Origin: Ignavibacteria bacterium
GTDB taxonomy: Bacteria > Bacteroidota > Ignavibacteria > Kapaibacteriales > UBA4661
Length of the DNA stretch: 64,000 bases
Direction: 5' to 3'
Assembly (NCBI GenBank): GCA_014654705.1
Contig: JACVZY010000090.1
Location: forward strand, 124,001 to 188,000
Shown one piece after another: positions 10,665 through 55,255 of the stretch; position 1 is the stretch's first letter; every line of letters starts with the position of its first letter. Below the pieces are notes generated by a model that was not told where the DNA came from, did no database searches, and saw only the letters and a program-made list of their open reading frames with translations. Made by a program: the position numbers and the translations under genes.

Positions 10665-11564
10665 ATGAACACTTCTCATACCCGCGCCCTTATTTTGCTC
10701 GCACTCACTGCCGTTCTTTGGAGTTCCGGTGGTGTGTTTATCAAGCTCGTCGAATGGGATGCTCTCTCTATTGCCGGTGTGCGGAGTGCTATTGCGGCGC
10801 TGATTCTTGGCATCGTTGCCCCGCCGCGCACGTGGTCGCCTTTGCGCTTGACGCGTTATGAGTTTGGCGGTGCGGTGGCGTGTATGCTAACGATGGTGAT
10901 GTTTGTTGCCGCCACGAAGCTCACCACTGCTGCGAATGCAATCTTGCTCCAATATACCGCGCCGGTACACGTTGCGCTCTTTGGTGCGTGGTTTCTGGGC
11001 GAGCGAACAACAAGGCTGGATTGGATGACAATTGCATTAGTTTTTGTAGGAATGATTCTATTTTTTGTGGAGAGCCTTTCGGCGGCAAGCATGGCGGGAA
11101 ATCTGCTGGCGATTGCAAGCGGAATGAGTTTCGGGTGGCTCGTGCTTTTTATGCGCAAGAATGTGCAAGAGCGCACTCACGAAGCGCCAAGCTCGCGCTC
11201 AGACGGTGTTTTTTGGGGAAATGTGCTGACGGCGATTATTTGCTTACCGTTTGCCGCGCAATCGTTGGCGTCAGGTTTTACGCCCTCTCTACAGAGTTGG
11301 ATAGGCATCGCTCTTCTTGGCGTTTTTCAGCTTGGCATATCATACGCACTTTATTCCCGTGTCATTTCTCACGTTTCGGCATTGGAAGCGATTTTAATAC
11401 CTATCATTGAGCCGCTCTTGAGTCCGCTTTGGGTGGCGCTTTTTGCGGGAGAACTGCCCGGCAAGTGGACGATTATCGGTGGCATGGTTGTGATTGGTGC
11501 TGTTACCATGCGGAGTCTCCTTGTTATGCGGCATGAACGCTTGCTTCGACAGAACTTGAACTAA
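10665..11564 (+). CDS. EamA/DMT-family membrane exporter
   Basis: The 299-residue hydrophobic protein has about ten membrane segments in two halves, as in the drug/metabolite transporter superfamily. The first half carries AVLWSSGGVFIKL and ILLQYTAPVHVALFGAWFLGE; the second has SHVSALEAILIPIIEPLLSPLW and GEL. These are typical EamA features. The cargo (amino acid, nucleotide or other metabolite) cannot be inferred. The gene converges on lpxH with seven bases between the stop codons. Confidence 0.88.
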   Translation: MNTSHTRALILLALTAVLWSSGGVFIKLVEWDALSIAGVRSAIAALILGIVAPPRTWSPLRLTRYEFGGAVACMLTMVMFVAATKLTTAANAILLQYTAPVHVALFGAWFLGERTTRLDWMTIALVFVGMILFFVESLSAASMAGNLLAIASGMSFGWLVLFMRKNVQERTHEAPSSRSDGVFWGNVLTAIICLPFAAQSLASGFTPSLQSWIGIALLGVFQLGISYALYSRVISHVSALEAILIPIIEPLLSPLWVALFAGELPGKWTIIGGMVVIGAVTMRSLLVMRHERLLRQNLN

Positions 11565-11571
11565 GGAATTA

Positions 11572-12330
11572 TTATTTGCCACGATGAACTGCGAAAAAAT
11601 CATCTAAGCGGCAAAGACGCAGAGTTACGCCGTCAAATTCCGCGTAAGTGCGGTGCGTTAGCCAATCGCCTGTGTTGACGTAAAGACCTCTGCCCGCCTT
11701 GTGCTCAAACTGTTTTTCGATGGGTTTGTGTAAATGTCCCATGAGCACAAAGTCGCATCCTGCCTTGATTTTCTCCTCTGCAAACGCTTCCAAGCCGTCA
11801 CGTTCATTCCCAAATTGTTTATCGCTGGTGTAAGCGCGGCTTTTCCGCGAGGCTCGTGCGGCAATGCCTACACCAACGTCAGGATGAAGCCATTTCCAAA
11901 GCCAGAGCGCAACAGGATTGCGCAAGACCGCTCGTAGTATGAGATAGCCGGTATCATTGAATGCTTTCCCGTCGCCATGAGCAAGGTAGAATCGCTTCCC
12001 GTGCAGCACCGCCTCATGGTCGCCTTTGTGAATGGTGATACCAAGCTCTTCCTCAAAAAAGGTTTTGTGCCCGAAGTCGTGATTGCCAATCAGATATTCT
12101 ACCGAAATACCGCTATCGGCATAATCAGCAAGTGCTGAGAGTGTGCGGATGTGGTATTTGGGAACAACAGTGGCATATTCAAACCAATAGTCGAACAAGT
12201 CCCCCAAAATAAAAAGCCGCTCACAGTGCGGCTTTGCTAGGGTAAGAAATTTCAAAAGGTCGCGCTCACGCTGTTTGTCGGCGGAGCGCTCACCAAGACC
12301 TAAGTGTTGATCAGAAATAAAGTATATCAT
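11572..12330 (-). CDS. lpxH: UDP-2,3-diacylglucosamine diphosphatase, lipid A synthesis
   Basis: LpxH hydrolyses UDP-2,3-diacylglucosamine to lipid X and UMP at the inner membrane, the fourth step of lipid A synthesis. The 252-residue product has the calcineurin-like metallophosphatase set in order: SDQHLG, GDLFDYWFEY, GNHDFGH, AHGDGKAFNDTG, and GHLHKP near the C terminus. HPDVGVGIAARASRKSR is typical of the Bacteroidota LpxH group. The first motif has DQH where most relatives have DVH; the metal ligands are kept. It follows the TerC-like gene by 19 bases on the same strand, so the two are probably one operon. Confidence 0.88.
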   Translation of the reverse strand: MIYFISDQHLGLGERSADKQRERDLLKFLTLAKPHCERLFILGDLFDYWFEYATVVPKYHIRTLSALADYADSGISVEYLIGNHDFGHKTFFEEELGITIHKGDHEAVLHGKRFYLAHGDGKAFNDTGYLILRAVLRNPVALWLWKWLHPDVGVGIAARASRKSRAYTSDKQFGNERDGLEAFAEEKIKAGCDFVLMGHLHKPIEKQFEHKAGRGLYVNTGDWLTHRTYAEFDGVTLRLCRLDDFFAVHRGK

Positions 12331-45928: not shown

Positions 45929-48070
45929 ATGGAATACTTAGCTATCATTCTGGTTCTGGGGCTTTTGTCCCTCGTCGTGGCGTTTGTTTTTTATCGGCGC
46001 GTAACGTCCGTTTCTATCGAAACCGGCGCGGCTTCTGCAGCAGAAGTAGCGCGTTTGACCGAAATATCGGATGCAATCGCTGAGGGTGCAATGGCGTTCT
46101 TGAAGCGCGAGTACTCAATTCTCGCCATTTTTATGGCAATTTTTGCCGTGATTATTGCTTTTGCCATCAGCGACCCTCACGCAAGCGCACCTATGGGGCT
46201 GCTCTCTGCTGTAAGTTTCGTGATTGGTGCCGGTATTAGTGTTGCTGCCGGATATATCGGTATGAACATTGCTACCAAAGGTAACGTTCGTACTGCAGCG
46301 GCAGCGCGTATTTCCTTGCAAGAATCCTTCAAAATCGCGTTCAACTCCGGTGCCGTGATGGGCTTCGGTTTGACGGGACTTGCTGTTTTGGGTATTGCCA
46401 TTGTTTATATCGGTTTGCGCCAAATGTTCCCAACAGAGCAAATCCATATCATTATGGAAATTCTTTCCGGCTTTGCGCTTGGTGGTTCTTCCGTAGCGCT
46501 TTTTGGGCGCGTCGGTGGCGGTATTTACACCAAAGCAGCAGACGTAGGCGCTGATCTTGTCGGTAAAGTGGAAGCCGGTATTCCTGAAGACGACCCACGC
46601 AATCCGGCTGTTATCGCCGACAACGTAGGTGATAACGTAGGCGATATTGCTGGTATGGGTGCCGACCTTTTCGGCTCGGTAGCAGAAAGCACCTGCGCTG
46701 CAATGGTTATTGGCGCGACGGCATTTGCATATGTTCCCGATGAAAGCCTACGCGTGGCTGCACTTCTTTTCCCGCTTATCGTGAGCGGCGTCGGTATTGT
46801 CGCCAGCTTCCTTTCGCTCTTTTTGGTTAATCCGAAGTCGGAAGACAAAGTCGAATCTTCGCTCAAAAACGCGCTTATCGGTTCGACTGTCTTTATGCTT
46901 GCTGCCTTGTATTATCCGACCATGAAATTTATTCCCGCAGATTTCAAACTCTCTCCCGAAAGCCAGTTCATCTATCACAATACTGGCGTATTTATCGCAC
47001 TTGCCGCCGGACTCATTTCAGGTTTGCTGGTAGGATTGCTGACGGAGTATTTCACTTCTCATCGTTATAGCCCCGTGCGTGAAATTGCTGCCGCTTCGCA
47101 AACCGGCGCTGCCACAAACATCATCTACGGTCTTGCAAACGGCTATAATAGCTCGGTTATTCCGATGCTGCTCATTGCCATTACGGCTGCTGTCGGCTTT
47201 AACTACGCCGGAATGTACGGTATTGCTATGGCTGCTATCGGTATGCTTGGTACGATTGCTGTTGGCTTGACCATTGACGCTTACGGTCCCGTATCGGACA
47301 ATGCCGGCGGCATCGCAGAGATGGCAGAAATGGGCAAAGATATTCGCAAGCGCACCGACGCGCTGGATGCTGCGGGTAACACGACGGCTGCTATCGGCAA
47401 AGGTTTTGCTATCGGTTCGGCTGCGCTCACGAGCTTGGCACTTACCTCCGCCTTCCTTACTCGCGCAGCACAGGCAAAACCGGAATTGAATAATATCAAT
47501 CTCACCGACCCTGCTGTTCTTGCAGGTTTGATGGCTGGTGCAGCTCTTCCGTTCGCATTCTCTGCTATGACGATGAAATCCGTTGGCAAGGCTGCTTTTG
47601 ATATGATTGAAGAAGTGCGTCGTCAGTTCCGCGAAATACCGGGCTTGCTTCAGGGCAAAGCACGTCCTGATTACCGCACCTGTGTTGATATTTCCACCAA
47701 AGCATCTCTCCGCGAGATGATTGCCCCGGGCTTGCTGGTAATTTTGACCCCGCTTCTCGTCGGCTTATTCTTTGGTGTGAAGATGTTGGCTGGCGTGCTT
47801 ATCGGTTCGCTTATCTCCGGTGTGATGCTCGCGATTTCGATGGCAAACTCCGGTGGCGCATGGGATAATGCAAAAAAATATATCGAAACCGGTCAACTTG
47901 GTGGTAAAGGCTCCGACACACACAAAGCGGCTGTTGTGGGCGATACCGTCGGCGACCCGTTCAAAGACACATCGGGTCCGTCGTTGAACATTCTTATCAA
48001 ACTCATGGCTATTATCAGCCTTGTGTTTGTGCCGTTCTTCGTGAGCAAGGGCGGAATTTTCATGAAGTAA
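45929..48070 (+). CDS. hppA: Membrane-bound ion-translocating pyrophosphatase
   Basis: This integral membrane enzyme couples pyrophosphate hydrolysis to H+ or Na+ pumping. The 713-residue product has about 16 membrane segments and the catalytic signature [19 protein letters not shown], plus [19 protein letters not shown] near the end. The site [18 protein letters not shown] has alanine where K+-independent enzymes have lysine, so it should be of the K+-dependent class; whether it moves Na+ or H+ is not settled here. The ATG at 45929 (MEYLAIILV) starts the first membrane helix. A strong terminator follows. Confidence 0.94.
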
Positions 48071-48096: not shown

Positions 48097-48133
48097 GTGC
48101 GAATGATACTTCGGTGTCATTCGCACTTTTTTT
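48097..48133 (+). terminator. Intrinsic terminator of hppA
   Basis: GTGCGAATGATAC (48097-48109) and GTGTCATTCGCAC (48114-48126) form a 13-bp stem with one G.U pair capped by a TTCG tetraloop, followed by seven T. This is a textbook rho-independent terminator. Confidence 0.92.
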
Positions 48134-48163: not shown

Positions 48164-49324
48164 TTAGTATTTGACAACTTTCTGCACCCAACGCCCGCCC
48201 GCATCATCGAGCACTTCCAGCAGATACACGCCGTTAGCAAGCGTGCTCACATCCAGCGTCGTAGCAAACCGTCCCGAAGCGGCAGTATGATGCTCTTGCA
48301 GCACTGCTTCTCCCAAAATATTCCGCAATGTGAGTATGAGCGTACTAGCGTGGTCAAGTGTAGTCTCGAGCGTGAGGGAAGTGGTGACGGGGTTGGGGGC
48401 GAGGGTGGTGTTTTCCTTTTCAGATTGTATGCTTGTAACTTGTGTGCTTATGGTTTGGAAGGCTGTGCCACCAATAGAATGTGTTACTGACAAAGTATAA
48501 TATCTTCCCGCTTGAAGACTATCAGGTAATCTAACAACGATGCGATTTGGTTCTACGCTAACGGTACTCAAGATTACTTGCCCCAGTCTTACTATGAGAT
48601 CAAGCTGACACCAAACTTGAAAATTACCTGTGATAGTTAAGGTTTTTGTGCTCCCTAGGATAATGCTTGGAGGAACTATACTGTTAATACTAATGATTGG
48701 AGGCTCTATTGTCGGCACGTAAATAGTCTGTCGTGATTCTTGTCCATCTGGATTAGTAACCACAATCAATTGAGGTCCAGAATAAATATCAACTGAATTA
48801 GGTATAACTACTGTTATAGTTGTGCTGCTCAAAGAAACAATGGACGAAAGTACACCACCTATCCGCACAACAGCTCCAGCAGAAAAATTCGTTCCACTAA
48901 TTGTAAGACCCTGTTTTGAGGATGGGCAAATTATTGATAAGCGTGTCGATGTTATTTTGGGTGGTGGTGGATTCAAAATACCAATCCTTATACCAACTTT
49001 AGTCTCATCAGGATTCTCCACCAATAAGACCGCCACATCAGAGGCTGTCGTTAACTCCCTCGGAACAAGAGCAATAATTACTGAATCACCTTCCAAGCGC
49101 ACATTCGTCAGTTTGCGAGTATTAAAATAAACCGATGCACCACGTTGGAAACGTTTGCCGCTTATCGTCAGCACGGTAGAATCTGCGCCTGTGAGTAGGC
49201 TTTCGGGGGAAATACTTGTGATGTAGGGGCGCAAGACTGTCGCCGTGGTTGTGCCTTGAGCGTGTAGGCTTGGAAATGAAGCGCACAAGAGCAGCACAAG
49301 TAAGAGAAATCGTGTAGGTCGCAT
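48164..49324 (-). CDS. Secreted IPT/TIG-repeat protein with T9SS sorting domain (third paralogue)
   Basis: The 386-residue protein has a signal peptide (FLLLVLLLCASFPSLHAQ), IPT/TIG-like domains (ITSISPESLLTG, LSIICPSSKQGLTISG, INSIVPPSIILGSTK) and a T9SS type A ending (LAPNPVTTSLTLE, LRNILGEAVLQE, NGVYLLEVLDD). Its 5' 330 bases and 3' 250 bases closely match the genes at 16740-19346, 30 kb away, whereas the centre is AT-rich and different. The ligand is unknown. Confidence 0.87.
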   Translation of the reverse strand: MRPTRFLLLVLLLCASFPSLHAQGTTTATVLRPYITSISPESLLTGADSTVLTISGKRFQRGASVYFNTRKLTNVRLEGDSVIIALVPRELTTASDVAVLLVENPDETKVGIRIGILNPPPPKITSTRLSIICPSSKQGLTISGTNFSAGAVVRIGGVLSSIVSLSSTTITVVIPNSVDIYSGPQLIVVTNPDGQESRQTIYVPTIEPPIISINSIVPPSIILGSTKTLTITGNFQVWCQLDLIVRLGQVILSTVSVEPNRIVVRLPDSLQAGRYYTLSVTHSIGGTAFQTISTQVTSIQSEKENTTLAPNPVTTSLTLETTLDHASTLILTLRNILGEAVLQEHHTAASGRFATTLDVSTLANGVYLLEVLDDAGGRWVQKVVKY

Positions 49325-49586: not shown

Positions 49587-52500
49587 ATGTCTCCAAAGGT
49601 TACAGTGTGCTTTGTCTCTACCCTCTTGCCATCACGATTGTTCCGCAATCTCCTCTTGTGCTATCTTTTCTTGACCGTAGTTCCACTTCATGCACAGCAT
49701 TTTGTCAATGATGCACTGGGGCAATTCACCAATAGCACGGGCGCTATCATACGGTTTCGCGCTGAGTCGGGTGAGTTCCGTAACGGCAATCCCGCTCCCG
49801 CACACGTTCGCAATGACGGCATTATTGAATTTCTTGGTGCAAATAATCGTTTCACGGGCGGTGCAGCGCTTGGTGTCAATGAATCGCTTCGTGTAGGAGG
49901 TTTGGTGCGCTATGCAAGTTCTTCTGCAACAATGCAGCAGCAAGTTCAAGCGCGGTGGTATAGCAATCTTGCGCTGGATGGTATCGCCCCGAAGCGCATC
50001 GAAAGCGGTGTCTATGTTGGTGGCGAAAGTGCTTCGACAGGTGTGTTCACTGCAAGTGGTGGCGCACGGTTCTATAACGGCACGTTTTTCTACGACAACA
50101 CCGCCACACAACTCCTTTTGGGCGGTGAGGACTACCAAAATGTCGAAATTTTACGTGGGAGCGAACCCAAGCGCATACGTGCTGGAGCGAGTGTCCGCAC
50201 ACGCGGCGCGTTTCGGCAGAACTCAAGCAATGGTGGTGGATTGCAGGTGTTCGGTGTGCTCAGTATCGGCACAGATGGTCTTTTCCCATCAACGTTTTCG
50301 GGAACGGGACGCATAGAAATTGGAACAACAGCAGTTTCTGGTGTGAATAATACACTTCCGCCAAGTCTTAGTATCGGTTCAGGGCGTTTGACTATCGGTG
50401 TTCAAGAGTGCAATCTTTATGCGGGCTTACTTGCAACACGCTCGGAAAACGCTTCCATTCTCATTCAAACCGGAGCAACGGTGCGTCTATTCGTGCAGCC
50501 GAGCAGTACGAGCGGTTCCGTCAGTCTTGGTTTTGCAGGGAATGAACTGATTGTGAGCGGGAATCTGCGGAATGACCTCGTAAGTGGCACAAACGCAACA
50601 TTTCACACGCAAAGTACCGTGCGCTATAATTCAATGCAGTCTCAAGCATTGATGCAGACTAGTCATACCAGCCCCTACGGGCATCTTATTCTTGAAAACT
50701 CCAATAAAACAGTCTTTGCGCTGCCGTCGAATGTGCCGACATCGCAAGAATTGTCGTTACAAGGGCAGATTGGTATATTTCTCGCCGGGGCGTTGCGGGT
50801 CAATTCGTCGTTTGTGGACGTAGGCGCTTGGGAAATGGTGATGCTCACACCCAGCGCGGATGCCGTCTTTGTGCAGCACTCCGACGAGGTGCAAGGCGCA
50901 ATGCGGCGCGTGATGGCAAGTAGCATACGAAACTACACGTTCAATAACGCTCAAACCCTCTTCAGAGTTGATTCCAATAGTACTCCTCGTGATATGACGC
51001 TCACAGTTACACCGCGCCGCGAGCCTATCGTGGCGTATGAGGTTGTGCGTGATGTCCGCAGAAAGGTGCGCTGGCATTGGTCTGGAGATGCCGCATGGAC
51101 AGGCGCTTTACGGCTTGGTTATCGGCGCGAGGAGATTGCACCGCCCTTTCTTGCGGCGAATGAAAGCAGTTTGAGTATGTTTGCGCTCACGAGTAACAAT
51201 GCTACGGCTGCTCCTCGGCTGCTTGGTGCGGTGGGTGTGGAGCGAATGTTGGCATTAAGCAATGCGCTGGGATTTGTCGAATTTCGCGGGCTAACTTCGC
51301 AAGCGGGAACGCCATTTTCCGTTGTGTCCGGTGATACACTTCTTTTGCGCGGTGGGCGTGAGTTGGTGCGGAGTGTACGGGATGGTCGTTGGTCGAATCC
51401 TACCACCTGGAATATAGCACGAGAGCCGGATGCAGAAGATAGTGTTGAAATTAACCATACTGTTCACGTGGGCTTTCGCCGAAATGCGCTTGACGGTACA
51501 ACACTGCTTGGGCAAGTATGGGAACGGGGTGCGGCGAGAAACGAGGCGCTGGCACAAACGGTTTCTTTTGCTTCTGCGGTCAATAGCGATACTTCCCGTC
51601 CGGCGGCGCTTCTTGTTGGTTCGTTTGCTGCCAGTGATTCCACATTCCTTGACGAAGCGCCGCCCGCACAAGGCAAGTGGTCTATCACTTCTGCAATAGT
51701 GCGCTCCGCACCGAGTACAACTTTTAGCAATGCTCCCGTTCCTTCGCGTGAGCAATTGCGGCGTTTGCGGAGTGATAGCCCCGTAGGATGGCAAGGTTTG
51801 GTCGTGTTTTCACCTGCTTCGATGTCCGATTCGACCCACCTGCAAATTGGCAGCCTGCAAAACGCATCGCTGGTATCGAATGGCGGGCGTATTGAGGTGT
51901 CGCAAAGCCTCGTAAGTACAGGGCTTATTCGCAATAACGGAACGGTGAGTAGTCGAGCAGATGAAAACGTTATTCAGCAAGATTCTATTGCGGGGTGGGT
52001 TGTGTTTTCGGGTGATGGGGTTGGGCGTGTGCAGCGCATACCTTCACTACGCTATACCAATCTTGCTCTTGCAGGACGTTCTCAGAAATTGATTATGCCG
52101 CAGAATGATCGTCGCTTCATTGTTTATGATTCCCTCCAAACAAGCCGTGATGCTGTTGCAGACGTACCGCCGACGAGCAGCATAGAAGTTCGTGGTGGTG
52201 TATCGCACGATGGTAGTATTGGTAATGCAAGCCGTGATGCGCTCTTGCAGTTGAACGGTGTGCGCCGCCAGTTTATGCGAGGTGCGGGTAGCATTGATGC
52301 GCTTACTATGGAAAATGATGCCGGAGTGGTGACCCTTGACGGGAACATTACTCTTCGTGCCGCACTAAATCTACGGCGGGGCGAATTTCAAAATTCAGAC
52401 GTGGCAAATTGTATTCTTGCCGACAACGCTGTCATAACACGCTTTCCTGAAGGCTCACTTGCCGTGCAGCCCATCGCGCAAGGGAGTGTGAGCCTGCGTA

Positions 52501-53960
52501 CACGCGGAGAGAGCGCAATGACGGCAACGGGTGAACTTTTACCACGCATTGCGGTGCTGGATGTGCGCAATCGCGGCGGGTATCGCATGACAAGAAATGT
52601 ACGTGTGAACGACTCGCTTACGCTTGCCTCACGCCTCTGGACGGAAAGTGAAAGTGTTACGGGCGCATATACGCTTGACTTTGCGGGTGCGGATGAGCTA
52701 GCTAACCCGCAGTTCTTGGAAGATTCCGCCGAAATTATCGGCACAGTGCGTCGCGTGATTCCGACCGATACTCTTCCCCGTCTTTTCAATAATCGCTACA
52801 CGACGCTTCAAATACTCTCCCCCACAAGCCAATCTTTGCAAACCACCGTGCGTGTCCTGCCTGACCGCTTCCCTTCACCGACAAGCGATACGACAAAAGT
52901 GCGGCGTAGTGTAGAAATAATACTTACGAGTAGCAATGATTCCCCAGCAAATACCCTCGTGAGAATCGGCTACGCATGGCGCATACAGCCACAAGACGAA
53001 ACCAATGACCTTGACGCTCCGCGTGTTCTGTTGCAGCATTGGAACCCCGAACTCGGTGCATGGCAAACAAATGGTACACCCCGCCGACCTACGGTGCGGT
53101 CAGCGTGGAACACACTCGCCGATGAAGGCTTGTGGCAATATGGAGTAATGGATAGTGTGCGAATTATGCCTACGTCCTCACGTTTTTTTGCGCTTGGCGT
53201 TGATTCTACACGAACGCTCGTACCAACTGCATTTATTGTTATGCAGGCATTTCTGGAGGGGGCGTATCTTGGTGATGGGCGTATGAAAACACTTCTGCGC
53301 GAGGACGGTATTCTGCCGCGCAGCCTTGACGGCATGAGTCTGTCGGTTCTTGACGGAGTGCAGAACGCTCAATTTATTGGTGAAAAGGCTGTAATAAGGG
53401 CATTGCCTAGTGATATGGTGGATTGGTTGCTTTTGGAGTTGCGCTCCGTTTCGCGTGGTATGCCGTCTGATTCTCTTCGCTTTTTTCTACCGATATTATT
53501 GAAGCGTAACGGCACTATCTACAGCTCAAGCCTGCAACCCGCAGTGGCGCTGGAACTGCCGGAATCGCTGGAAAGCGGTGGGCGTTTTATTGCAACGCTT
53601 CATCATCGTAATCACCTGCCCGTGCAGTGGCGCGATACGCTGGAGGTAGCGCCACAGCGACGTTTCGCACTGGATTGGAGCGACACCTCGCGCGTGATAG
53701 GCGGCGGGCGGGCACTGCGGCAATTTGGAGGAAGCGATGCTGCAAAGCCTGTCTTTATGATGCTTGCCGGAGATGTTAGTGATGAACAGCATGAACGCTG
53801 GTCGATTACTCGTTTTGATTACGATGCTGTCATGTCGTCGGCATGGAGAAATAGTCTGCGCGAAGGGTATCTCCGGCACGACGTTGACGCGGATGGGCTT
53901 ATCACCACACGTGACCTGAATTTGATTTGGAACAATCGTAACAAAAGGAGAGAGCGATGA
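49587..53960 (+). CDS. Giant beta-helix-like surface protein with dockerin-like C terminus
   Basis: The 1457-residue protein starts with a signal peptide (LLLCYLFLTVVPLHAQ) and has long beta-strand repeats rich in N, S, T and G. A TW module (GRWSNPTTW, EDSVEINHTVHVG) is near residue 590. The C terminus has an EF-hand-type loop D1432-V-D-A-D-G-L-I-T-T-R-D1443, followed by NLIWNNRN, preceded by a degenerate first loop (GDVSDEQHERWSITRFDYD); this is the two-loop layout of type I dockerins. No T9SS domain is present. It overlaps the next, T9SS-bearing gene by four bases. Confidence 0.82.
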   Translation: MSPKVTVCFVSTLLPSRLFRNLLLCYLFLTVVPLHAQHFVNDALGQFTNSTGAIIRFRAESGEFRNGNPAPAHVRNDGIIEFLGANNRFTGGAALGVNESLRVGGLVRYASSSATMQQQVQARWYSNLALDGIAPKRIESGVYVGGESASTGVFTASGGARFYNGTFFYDNTATQLLLGGEDYQNVEILRGSEPKRIRAGASVRTRGAFRQNSSNGGGLQVFGVLSIGTDGLFPSTFSGTGRIEIGTTAVSGVNNTLPPSLSIGSGRLTIGVQECNLYAGLLATRSENASILIQTGATVRLFVQPSSTSGSVSLGFAGNELIVSGNLRNDLVSGTNATFHTQSTVRYNSMQSQALMQTSHTSPYGHLILENSNKTVFALPSNVPTSQELSLQGQIGIFLAGALRVNSSFVDVGAWEMVMLTPSADAVFVQHSDEVQGAMRRVMASSIRNYTFNNAQTLFRVDSNSTPRDMTLTVTPRREPIVAYEVVRDVRRKVRWHWSGDAAWTGALRLGYRREEIAPPFLAANESSLSMFALTSNNATAAPRLLGAVGVERMLALSNALGFVEFRGLTSQAGTPFSVVSGDTLLLRGGRELVRSVRDGRWSNPTTWNIAREPDAEDSVEINHTVHVGFRRNALDGTTLLGQVWERGAARNEALAQTVSFASAVNSDTSRPAALLVGSFAASDSTFLDEAPPAQGKWSITSAIVRSAPSTTFSNAPVPSREQLRRLRSDSPVGWQGLVVFSPASMSDSTHLQIGSLQNASLVSNGGRIEVSQSLVSTGLIRNNGTVSSRADENVIQQDSIAGWVVFSGDGVGRVQRIPSLRYTNLALAGRSQKLIMPQNDRRFIVYDSLQTSRDAVADVPPTSSIEVRGGVSHDGSIGNASRDALLQLNGVRRQFMRGAGSIDALTMENDAGVVTLDGNITLRAALNLRRGEFQNSDVANCILADNAVITRFPEGSLAVQPIAQGSVSLRTRGESAMTATGELLPRIAVLDVRNRGGYRMTRNVRVNDSLTLASRLWTESESVTGAYTLDFAGADELANPQFLEDSAEIIGTVRRVIPTDTLPRLFNNRYTTLQILSPTSQSLQTTVRVLPDRFPSPTSDTTKVRRSVEIILTSSNDSPANTLVRIGYAWRIQPQDETNDLDAPRVLLQHWNPELGAWQTNGTPRRPTVRSAWNTLADEGLWQYGVMDSVRIMPTSSRFFALGVDSTRTLVPTAFIVMQAFLEGAYLGDGRMKTLLREDGILPRSLDGMSLSVLDGVQNAQFIGEKAVIRALPSDMVDWLLLELRSVSRGMPSDSLRFFLPILLKRNGTIYSSSLQPAVALELPESLESGGRFIATLHHRNHLPVQWRDTLEVAPQRRFALDWSDTSRVIGGGRALRQFGGSDAAKPVFMMLAGDVSDEQHERWSITRFDYDAVMSSAWRNSLREGYLRHDVDADGLITTRDLNLIWNNRNKRRER

Positions 53961-55255
53961 TGAACGTTACAAGGTTTTTCGCTGCTGTTATTGCAGTATG
54001 GGTTATTGCTGAAAATACTCTTATTGCCCAAGGAAATGAGCCATCGGCAGAGGTAGAAGTGCGCAACGTTGTTGTACTACCGCCGCGTCATGTTGAGTTT
54101 GACCTTGTGCTAACCAATCGTTTTTCTTCGGTGCAAACAGCATGGCGCACGTGGGCAAACGGCACGTTTTTTCTGACAACAACCAACCTCAGTCTTGCGG
54201 GAGCTACGCTGAATGTGGATTCCTCAGGCTTGCCGCCTGAACGCTCCCTCTTAGGCTCAAGGCGTTTGGGCTACGAGATGCTGACGCTTGTGCAAGCACC
54301 GCGTCAGAGAATAGGGGTCGTCATCATGGGTGCAGATAGTGTCGAAAATACAGTCTTGGTTTTGCCCGATTCATCGCGCATATTGGGGCGATTTCGTTTG
54401 TCGCTTGCTGATACAATACATGAGCCGGAGCGGGTGCGGCTTGCGTGGGTGCAACCCACAAGCCGCTTTCAAGCCAATGCTTTCAAAACTGCACACGAGC
54501 AAACAGTGGAAGGCAAACGCTATAACTCGAATGACAACATAGAAATGCCAACGCGCTATCGTGTGGATGTGCCAACGGTAGAGCTTGCCCCAACGCTAAG
54601 AGCAACACGCTTGCAAGCCGAGTACGCAGGCGATAAGAGTGTTCGTATTCGCTGGACGACCACCGAAGAGCGTGTAGGGCGGCGTACCAATGCCGGTTTT
54701 CTCCTGCTGAGGCAGCTTGTGGGTGCTGCTGCAAGTAGTACGGTGGCAAATAATTTCGATACGGTTGCATCCTTCTCGCGCACTTTCGGCTTGCGCCTGC
54801 GCGGAGCAAGTGGTGGTGCGGAATATGAATTTCTTGATTCGGTGCCTACGCGGGGCGATGTTTATGCGTACCGCTTGGGATTTCTGGACGCTACGATACG
54901 TCCGGCGCAAGAATTTCGTGCGGTCTTTAGCAGCGATACGGCACAGGCTGCCATCCCGAATGCTGTGCTTGCGAGCGCGGTTGCCAGCCCTAATCCTTTC
55001 GGCGAAAATACTCTTGTAAGCTATACGTTACTTGACCGCGCTCGTGTGACGGCATGGCTTTATGATGCTACGGGGCGAATTGTGCGCGAAATTTTTGCCA
55101 ATGTAGAGCGCCCGCGCGGTGAATACTCCTTTACGCTGGATGGTTCTTCGCTGCCGAACCAAGCCGCTTATTTCCTGCTACTGTCTGCGCTGCCCGTGAA
55201 CGATGCAGCAGTGGAGCGCTCGCAGACGACGCTGAAAATCCAGCTTTCGCGGTGA
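53957..55255 (+). CDS. T9SS-anchored partner protein with cohesin-like N-terminal region
   Basis: The 432-residue protein has a signal peptide (cut near LIAQ), then about residues 30-190 a beta-rich region (VEFDLVLTNRFSSVQTAWRT, WANGTFFLTTTNLSL, RFRLSLADT) with the layout of cohesin/CBM-like sandwiches, then an FN3-like domain (VRIRWTTTEERVGRRTNAGF) and a T9SS type A tail (ASPNPFGENTLVSYTLL, YDATGRIVREIF). It is translationally coupled to the giant dockerin-like protein (ATGATG at 53957). A surface receptor for that protein is plausible but inferred. Confidence 0.8.
   Translation: MMNVTRFFAAVIAVWVIAENTLIAQGNEPSAEVEVRNVVVLPPRHVEFDLVLTNRFSSVQTAWRTWANGTFFLTTTNLSLAGATLNVDSSGLPPERSLLGSRRLGYEMLTLVQAPRQRIGVVIMGADSVENTVLVLPDSSRILGRFRLSLADTIHEPERVRLAWVQPTSRFQANAFKTAHEQTVEGKRYNSNDNIEMPTRYRVDVPTVELAPTLRATRLQAEYAGDKSVRIRWTTTEERVGRRTNAGFLLLRQLVGAAASSTVANNFDTVASFSRTFGLRLRGASGGAEYEFLDSVPTRGDVYAYRLGFLDATIRPAQEFRAVFSSDTAQAAIPNAVLASAVASPNPFGENTLVSYTLLDRARVTAWLYDATGRIVREIFANVERPRGEYSFTLDGSSLPNQAAYFLLLSALPVNDAAVERSQTTLKIQLSR

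Follow-up and report, generated by a model that had tools for sequence, protein, structure and literature searches.

A giant dockerin-tailed protein (P1) and the small product of the gene directly behind it (P2), both encoded in a 64,000-nucleotide stretch of the genome of an Ignavibacteria bacterium of the order Kapaibacteriales (hereafter the window), probably form a dedicated one-to-one cohesin-dockerin-like pair in which P2 anchors P1 on the cell surface. The conserved gene pair suggests a plug-and-socket means of keeping large proteins on the surface of the cell. The source genome is a 5.7 Mb draft of Candidatus Kapaibacterium type, in which the window occupies 124001-188000 of contig C90; among named genomes, metagenome assemblies of Candidatus Kapaibacterium and Ignavibacteria are closest to it. 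The locus comprises the following features:

49587..53960, + strand: P1 (ORF1), exported protein of 1457 aa (open reading frame)
53769..53825, + strand: first calcium loop of P1, degenerate, GDVSDEQHERWSITRFDYD, about residues 1395-1413 (tail alignment)
53880..53915, + strand: second calcium loop of P1, intact, DVDADGLITTRD, D1432-D1443 (translation, alignment, tail profile)
53957..53960, + strand: ATGA overlap of the P1 stop and the P2 start (sequence)
53957..55255, + strand: P2 (ORF2), 432 aa, single copy, with a T9SS-like tail (open reading frame)
54026..54592, + strand: predicted N-terminal cohesin-fold domain of P2, residues 24-212 (AF2 model, Foldseek, VIA)
54593..54946, + strand: middle Ig-like region of P2 (sequence pattern; matches its counterpart in partners from other orders)
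54983..55252, + strand: C-terminal T9SS type A sorting-like domain of P2 (TIGR04183 weak, orthologues better)

Judged by its sequence, P1 is an exported protein without a recognised export signal beyond its signal peptide, which was identified by eye (...VVPLHAQ). Pfam and NCBIfam searches found no domain over the cut-off in P1 and, as the initial annotation had stated, no T9SS domain; enzyme domains were likewise not detected, either in P1 or in proteins related to it. P1 occurs in its own genome in a single copy without paralogue. Among relatives the reading frame ranges from about 680 to 1550 aa, with the tail and the partner remaining constant. The last residues of P1 are DVDADGLITTRDLNLIWNNRNKRRER, and counting from the translation placed D1432, D1434, D1436, G1437, I1439, and D1443 exactly where the initial annotation had located a dockerin-type calcium loop. 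The degenerate loop that it had described in front of the intact one was likewise seen when P1 was aligned with the tails of 25 relatives, which also served to build a tail profile. These tails align as a dockerin pattern with two EF-hand-like calcium loops, as expected for dockerin type I (PF00404), and in most relatives both loops are canonical, the first one reading, for example, GDVNGDGTVDRADYD. In the genus of the window the first loop carries an insertion and is degenerate, which was counted against the proposed pairing.

Searches of the window proteins against Pfam, NCBIfam, and PDB sequences found neither a cohesin nor a dockerin in P1 or P2, and the PF00404 scores of the window's P1 (11.7 bits) and of its relatives (13.6-13.8 bits) lie below the Pfam cut-off of 22.9 bits. 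When the PDB sequences were searched with the P1-tail profile, the best matches were mostly dockerins, although weak ones (top match 5lxv_B, E 0.0086); this chain is the crystallised partner of 5lxv_A, the second-best cohesin match of P2 in the structure search described below. Since the tail profile has a match in the majority of the order's genomes, almost without exception beside an orthologue of ORF2, the P1 tail is not a chance resemblance.

The second gene does overlap the first by four bases, as had been noted from the sequence. No Pfam or NCBIfam domain over the cut-off was found in the window's P2, and elsewhere in its own genome P2 is matched in the sorting-domain region only. The T9SS tail that had been assigned to this protein is weak in the window (14.7 bits against TIGR04183, cut-off 23) and becomes clearer in the orthologues, 18 of 30 of which match TIGR04183 at E<=0.1 (best 5e-6). 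The sorting domains of all ten scanned partners from other orders (10/10) exceed the PF18962 cut-off. The T9SS sortase PorU, the component for which a search was made, is encoded in the same genome (NF033707, 805 bits, E 4.9e-242).

The structure of the N-terminal domain of P2 (residues 24-212) was predicted by AlphaFold2 from 28 sequences, comprising the window and fetched loci, with a pLDDT of 93.1 and a pTM of 0.89. Foldseek placed cohesins on top (3fnk, E 1.7e-5; 5lxv_A, 1.9e-5); for most of its rows the TM-score was about 0.4-0.6 and the rmsd 5-8 A. In VIA-align the best match had a Z-score of 11.6 (3kcp_A, 139 residues, 3.1 A), and nearly all of the 50 rows listed were cohesins. The N-domain of a distant orthologue, taken from a second model, again retrieved cohesins first (VIA Z 10.9), and GH20 N-terminal and CBM3 domains ranked behind them (Z 8-9). 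The beta-sandwich fold itself is common to CBM3-type and GH20 N-terminal domains, a point that was counted against the pairing. On the sequence level, hhalign revealed no similarity between the P2 N-domain and PF00963 cohesins of the same order (0.24%), and PF00963 was not matched by any of the 30 P2 orthologues at E<=0.1. An indirect hint to PF00963 came from one subset of partners in other orders (hhalign 37%, E 3.5e-4). A cohesin fold of the P2 N-domain is thus supported by the models, and membership of the Pfam cohesin family is not supported. The cohesin-like character attributed to this region in the initial annotation therefore holds for the predicted fold (AF2, Foldseek, VIA) but does not extend to detectable sequence kinship with Pfam cohesins.

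A WxxWANGT motif in this domain is near-invariant, with a conservation of at least 90% among orthologues chosen independently of the motif; its conservation in alignment A3 is biased, because the sequences of that alignment were fetched using WxxWANGT. The most conserved strands are, by strand order, beta-3 and beta-8, and they include polar residues that probably point outward. In known cohesins, beta-3 and beta-8 are part of the dockerin-binding sheet.

To assess co-retention of the two genes, 99 genomes of the order were searched separately for P2 orthologues and for the P1-type dockerin tail. P2 orthologues were found in about three quarters of them. Both genes are present in 73 genomes and neither in 23, whereas P2 occurs alone in two and the tail alone in one, and in all three single-gene genomes the locus is truncated at a contig end. 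Within the 73 genomes that have both, the gene with the P1-type tail and P2 are adjacent on the same strand in 71, so that the homologues are usually linked, contrary to one of the refuting conditions set in the initial annotation. A Fisher test on the co-occurrence takes no account of phylogeny, and its value is not to be read literally. Of 25 linked reference loci, 8 show the ATGA overlap as well. In the remaining two genomes (G005 and G006) both genes are kept on different contigs, which was counted against the pairing. One genome consisting of a single contig (G012) lacks both genes, which its congeners possess.

The survey was extended beyond the order to 296 genomes of the phylum by using the P1-tail profile and a P2-domain profile. 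The tail profile also matches in other orders and classes. For 13 of 34 dockerin-tailed ORFs outside the order, the next gene encodes a T9SS-tailed protein of 250-450 aa (~380 aa) with Ig-like and T9SS parts resembling those of P2, whereas such a next gene follows only 1 of 83 other ORFs of the same loci (Fisher 1.7e-7). As the same pattern is found in other orders, the pairing of dockerin and T9SS-partner genes looks older than the order. The P2-domain profile had no match outside the order among the 296 genomes, and the domain is, as far as a sequence profile can tell, order-specific. In a single comparison, the N-domains of one subset of the outside-order partners proved homologous to that of P2 (hhalign 92%, E 6.5e-7).

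From the dockerin-type tail, the predicted cohesin fold, the T9SS-like tail, the sortase gene, and the linkage and co-retention of the two genes, we infer a scheme in which both proteins, each carrying a signal peptide, would be exported via Sec. P2 would then cross the outer membrane through the T9SS by means of its C-terminal domain and become tethered to the surface, where its cohesin-fold domain would hold the calcium-stabilised dockerin tail of P1, and the giant protein, which lacks a T9SS tail, would thereby be displayed. P2 might also help P1 across the outer membrane, and the adhesin-like filament suggested in the initial annotation would be a putative role of P1. A further-reaching version, which appears rather unlikely, is that the two proteins form a joint T9SS cargo in several Bacteroidota lineages, with P1 docking on P2 in the periplasm, being carried through the translocon, and being anchored by the signal of P2.

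The two proteins could also serve the same surface structure without binding via these domains; the P2 N-domain would then bind a glycan or another protein, and the P1 dockerin would be a calcium-stabilised end cap or the ligand of a different cohesin of the cell. This explanation, which we regard as unlikely, draws on the sharing of the fold with CBM3-type domains and on the PF00963 cohesins that exceed the cut-off in 55 of the 99 order genomes, the window's own included, usually in large open frames. Because of these further cohesins in the same genome, the assignment of P2 as the partner of P1 rests on linkage and not on exclusion. A pseudo-complex model speaks neither for nor against docking. 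It was obtained from a locus (L093) where P2 lies in the same frame as the P1 stop TAA, and translating this codon as Gly gave one artificial chain; the model had a pTM of 0.59 with an unfolded dockerin (pLDDT 30-60). Only three alignment rows covered the dockerin, which probably accounts for its unfolded state, and dockerin-only rows caused MAFFT to misalign strands of the other domain. Against the explanation without binding, exactly these two domain types are co-retained and adjacent, also outside the order, and cohesins rank above CBMs in all structure-match lists.

Alternatively, P2 might be a general receptor or mini-scaffoldin for many dockerin-tailed proteins, with P1 as its most constant client. 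Such a role would fit those order genomes that contain 4-11 matches to the P1-tail profile and a single P2, as well as the lack of a P2-like neighbour at the 18 loci with extra dockerins that were examined (L168-L185), but it is improbable, given that the P1-type dockerin is single in most order genomes, the window's own included, and that the extra tails differ in their consensus and may have other partners. Least probable is that the linkage reflects shared expression only, with P1 remaining periplasmic and P2 being secreted separately. The missing T9SS tail of P1 and the lack of a recognised export signal except the signal peptide would agree with this, yet both genes are kept where they are unlinked (G005 and G006), and the pairing pattern is seen again in other orders.

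The preferred reading of P1 and P2 as plug and socket has likenesses to several known systems. As in the cellulosomal cohesin-dockerin complexes of Clostridium thermocellum, Acetivibrio, and Ruminococcus (1ohz, 5lxv, 2b59), a cohesin fold and a C-terminal calcium-loop dockerin are found on separate proteins, one of which is anchored to the cell (as predicted for P2). The pair differs from cellulosomes in that no enzyme domain was found in P1, P2 offers a single cohesin-like domain where cellulosomes have a scaffoldin array, this domain lacks detectable sequence similarity to cohesins, the anchoring is of T9SS type, and the genes form a dedicated adjacent pair. A cellulosome was rejected as an explanation, as neither a dockerin enzyme (P1 and relatives) nor a multi-cohesin scaffoldin (one cohesin-like domain in P2) was found. 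The order is rich in cohesins and is not known for cellulosomes. The cohesin of Archaeoglobus fulgidus (2xdh; VIA Z 10.2) provides an example of the cohesin fold outside cellulosomes, like that predicted for P2, and non-cellulosomal cohesins of this type are not known to occur in a conserved pair of neighbouring genes that includes a T9SS tail.

The closest described case among the papers searched is Candidatus Stygibacter (Cloacimonadota), for which a 3,755-aa multi-cohesin scaffoldin with a T9SS-CTD and dockerin-bearing hydrolases as partners have been predicted (PMC8542988). There too a T9SS-type CTD would put cohesins on the surface and the partners end in dockerins, whereas P2 is small, offers a single socket, and has a dedicated large partner without recognised enzyme domain. 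Within T9SS biology the retention of SprB by SprF may serve as the nearest functional analogy, since here as well a Bacteroidota surface protein is retained by a specific partner. In that system the T9SS signal is part of the large protein itself, the type B CTD protein SprB, and SprF is a PorP-like outer-membrane barrel (PMC9143113), in contrast to the locus in the window, where the T9SS signal sits on the small partner P2 and not on the large P1. Among the open-licence papers searched there was none on the P1-P2 pair and none that joins Kapabacteria with dockerin.

Many large proteins of Bacteroidota and their relatives, to our knowledge, end in dockerin-like calcium repeats and have no T9SS tail, and we are aware of no established way in which they reach the surface or stay there. 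The pair offers a concrete, testable answer to how such dockerin-tailed giants might be retained there, would extend cohesin-dockerin logic past biomass degradation, and makes the next gene a cheap rule for locating dockerin partners.

Some additional observations concern other cohesins and dockerins and the surroundings of the locus. The window's own genome encodes a T9SS-tailed chain (contig C83, match at 11319-11651; L115) composed of a CUB-like domain, a cohesin (PF00963), a dockerin (PF00404), and a second cohesin, and a further cohesin-dockerin protein on contig C110 (L002). The extra dockerin tails mentioned above, with the consensus ADRVxxRNNxFxxTQVP, end many large proteins (L168-L185; genomes G018, G013, G022, G016, G024, and G031). 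At one locus (L142, 148-2508 and 4216-5844), a dockerin-tailed protein of another family itself has two stretches that match the cohesin profile, and two T9SS partner-like genes follow the dockerin-tailed gene, one of them with PF00963 over the cut-off. The divergent neighbour of P1 in the window (48164-49324, - strand) encodes a T9SS protein with TIG/choice-of-anchor Z repeats. Scans for promoters and terminators gave, taken together, no more than chance would; a strong terminator-like hairpin of 13 pairs followed by a T run lies at 48097-48126 (+ strand), just 3' of a gene ending at 48070.
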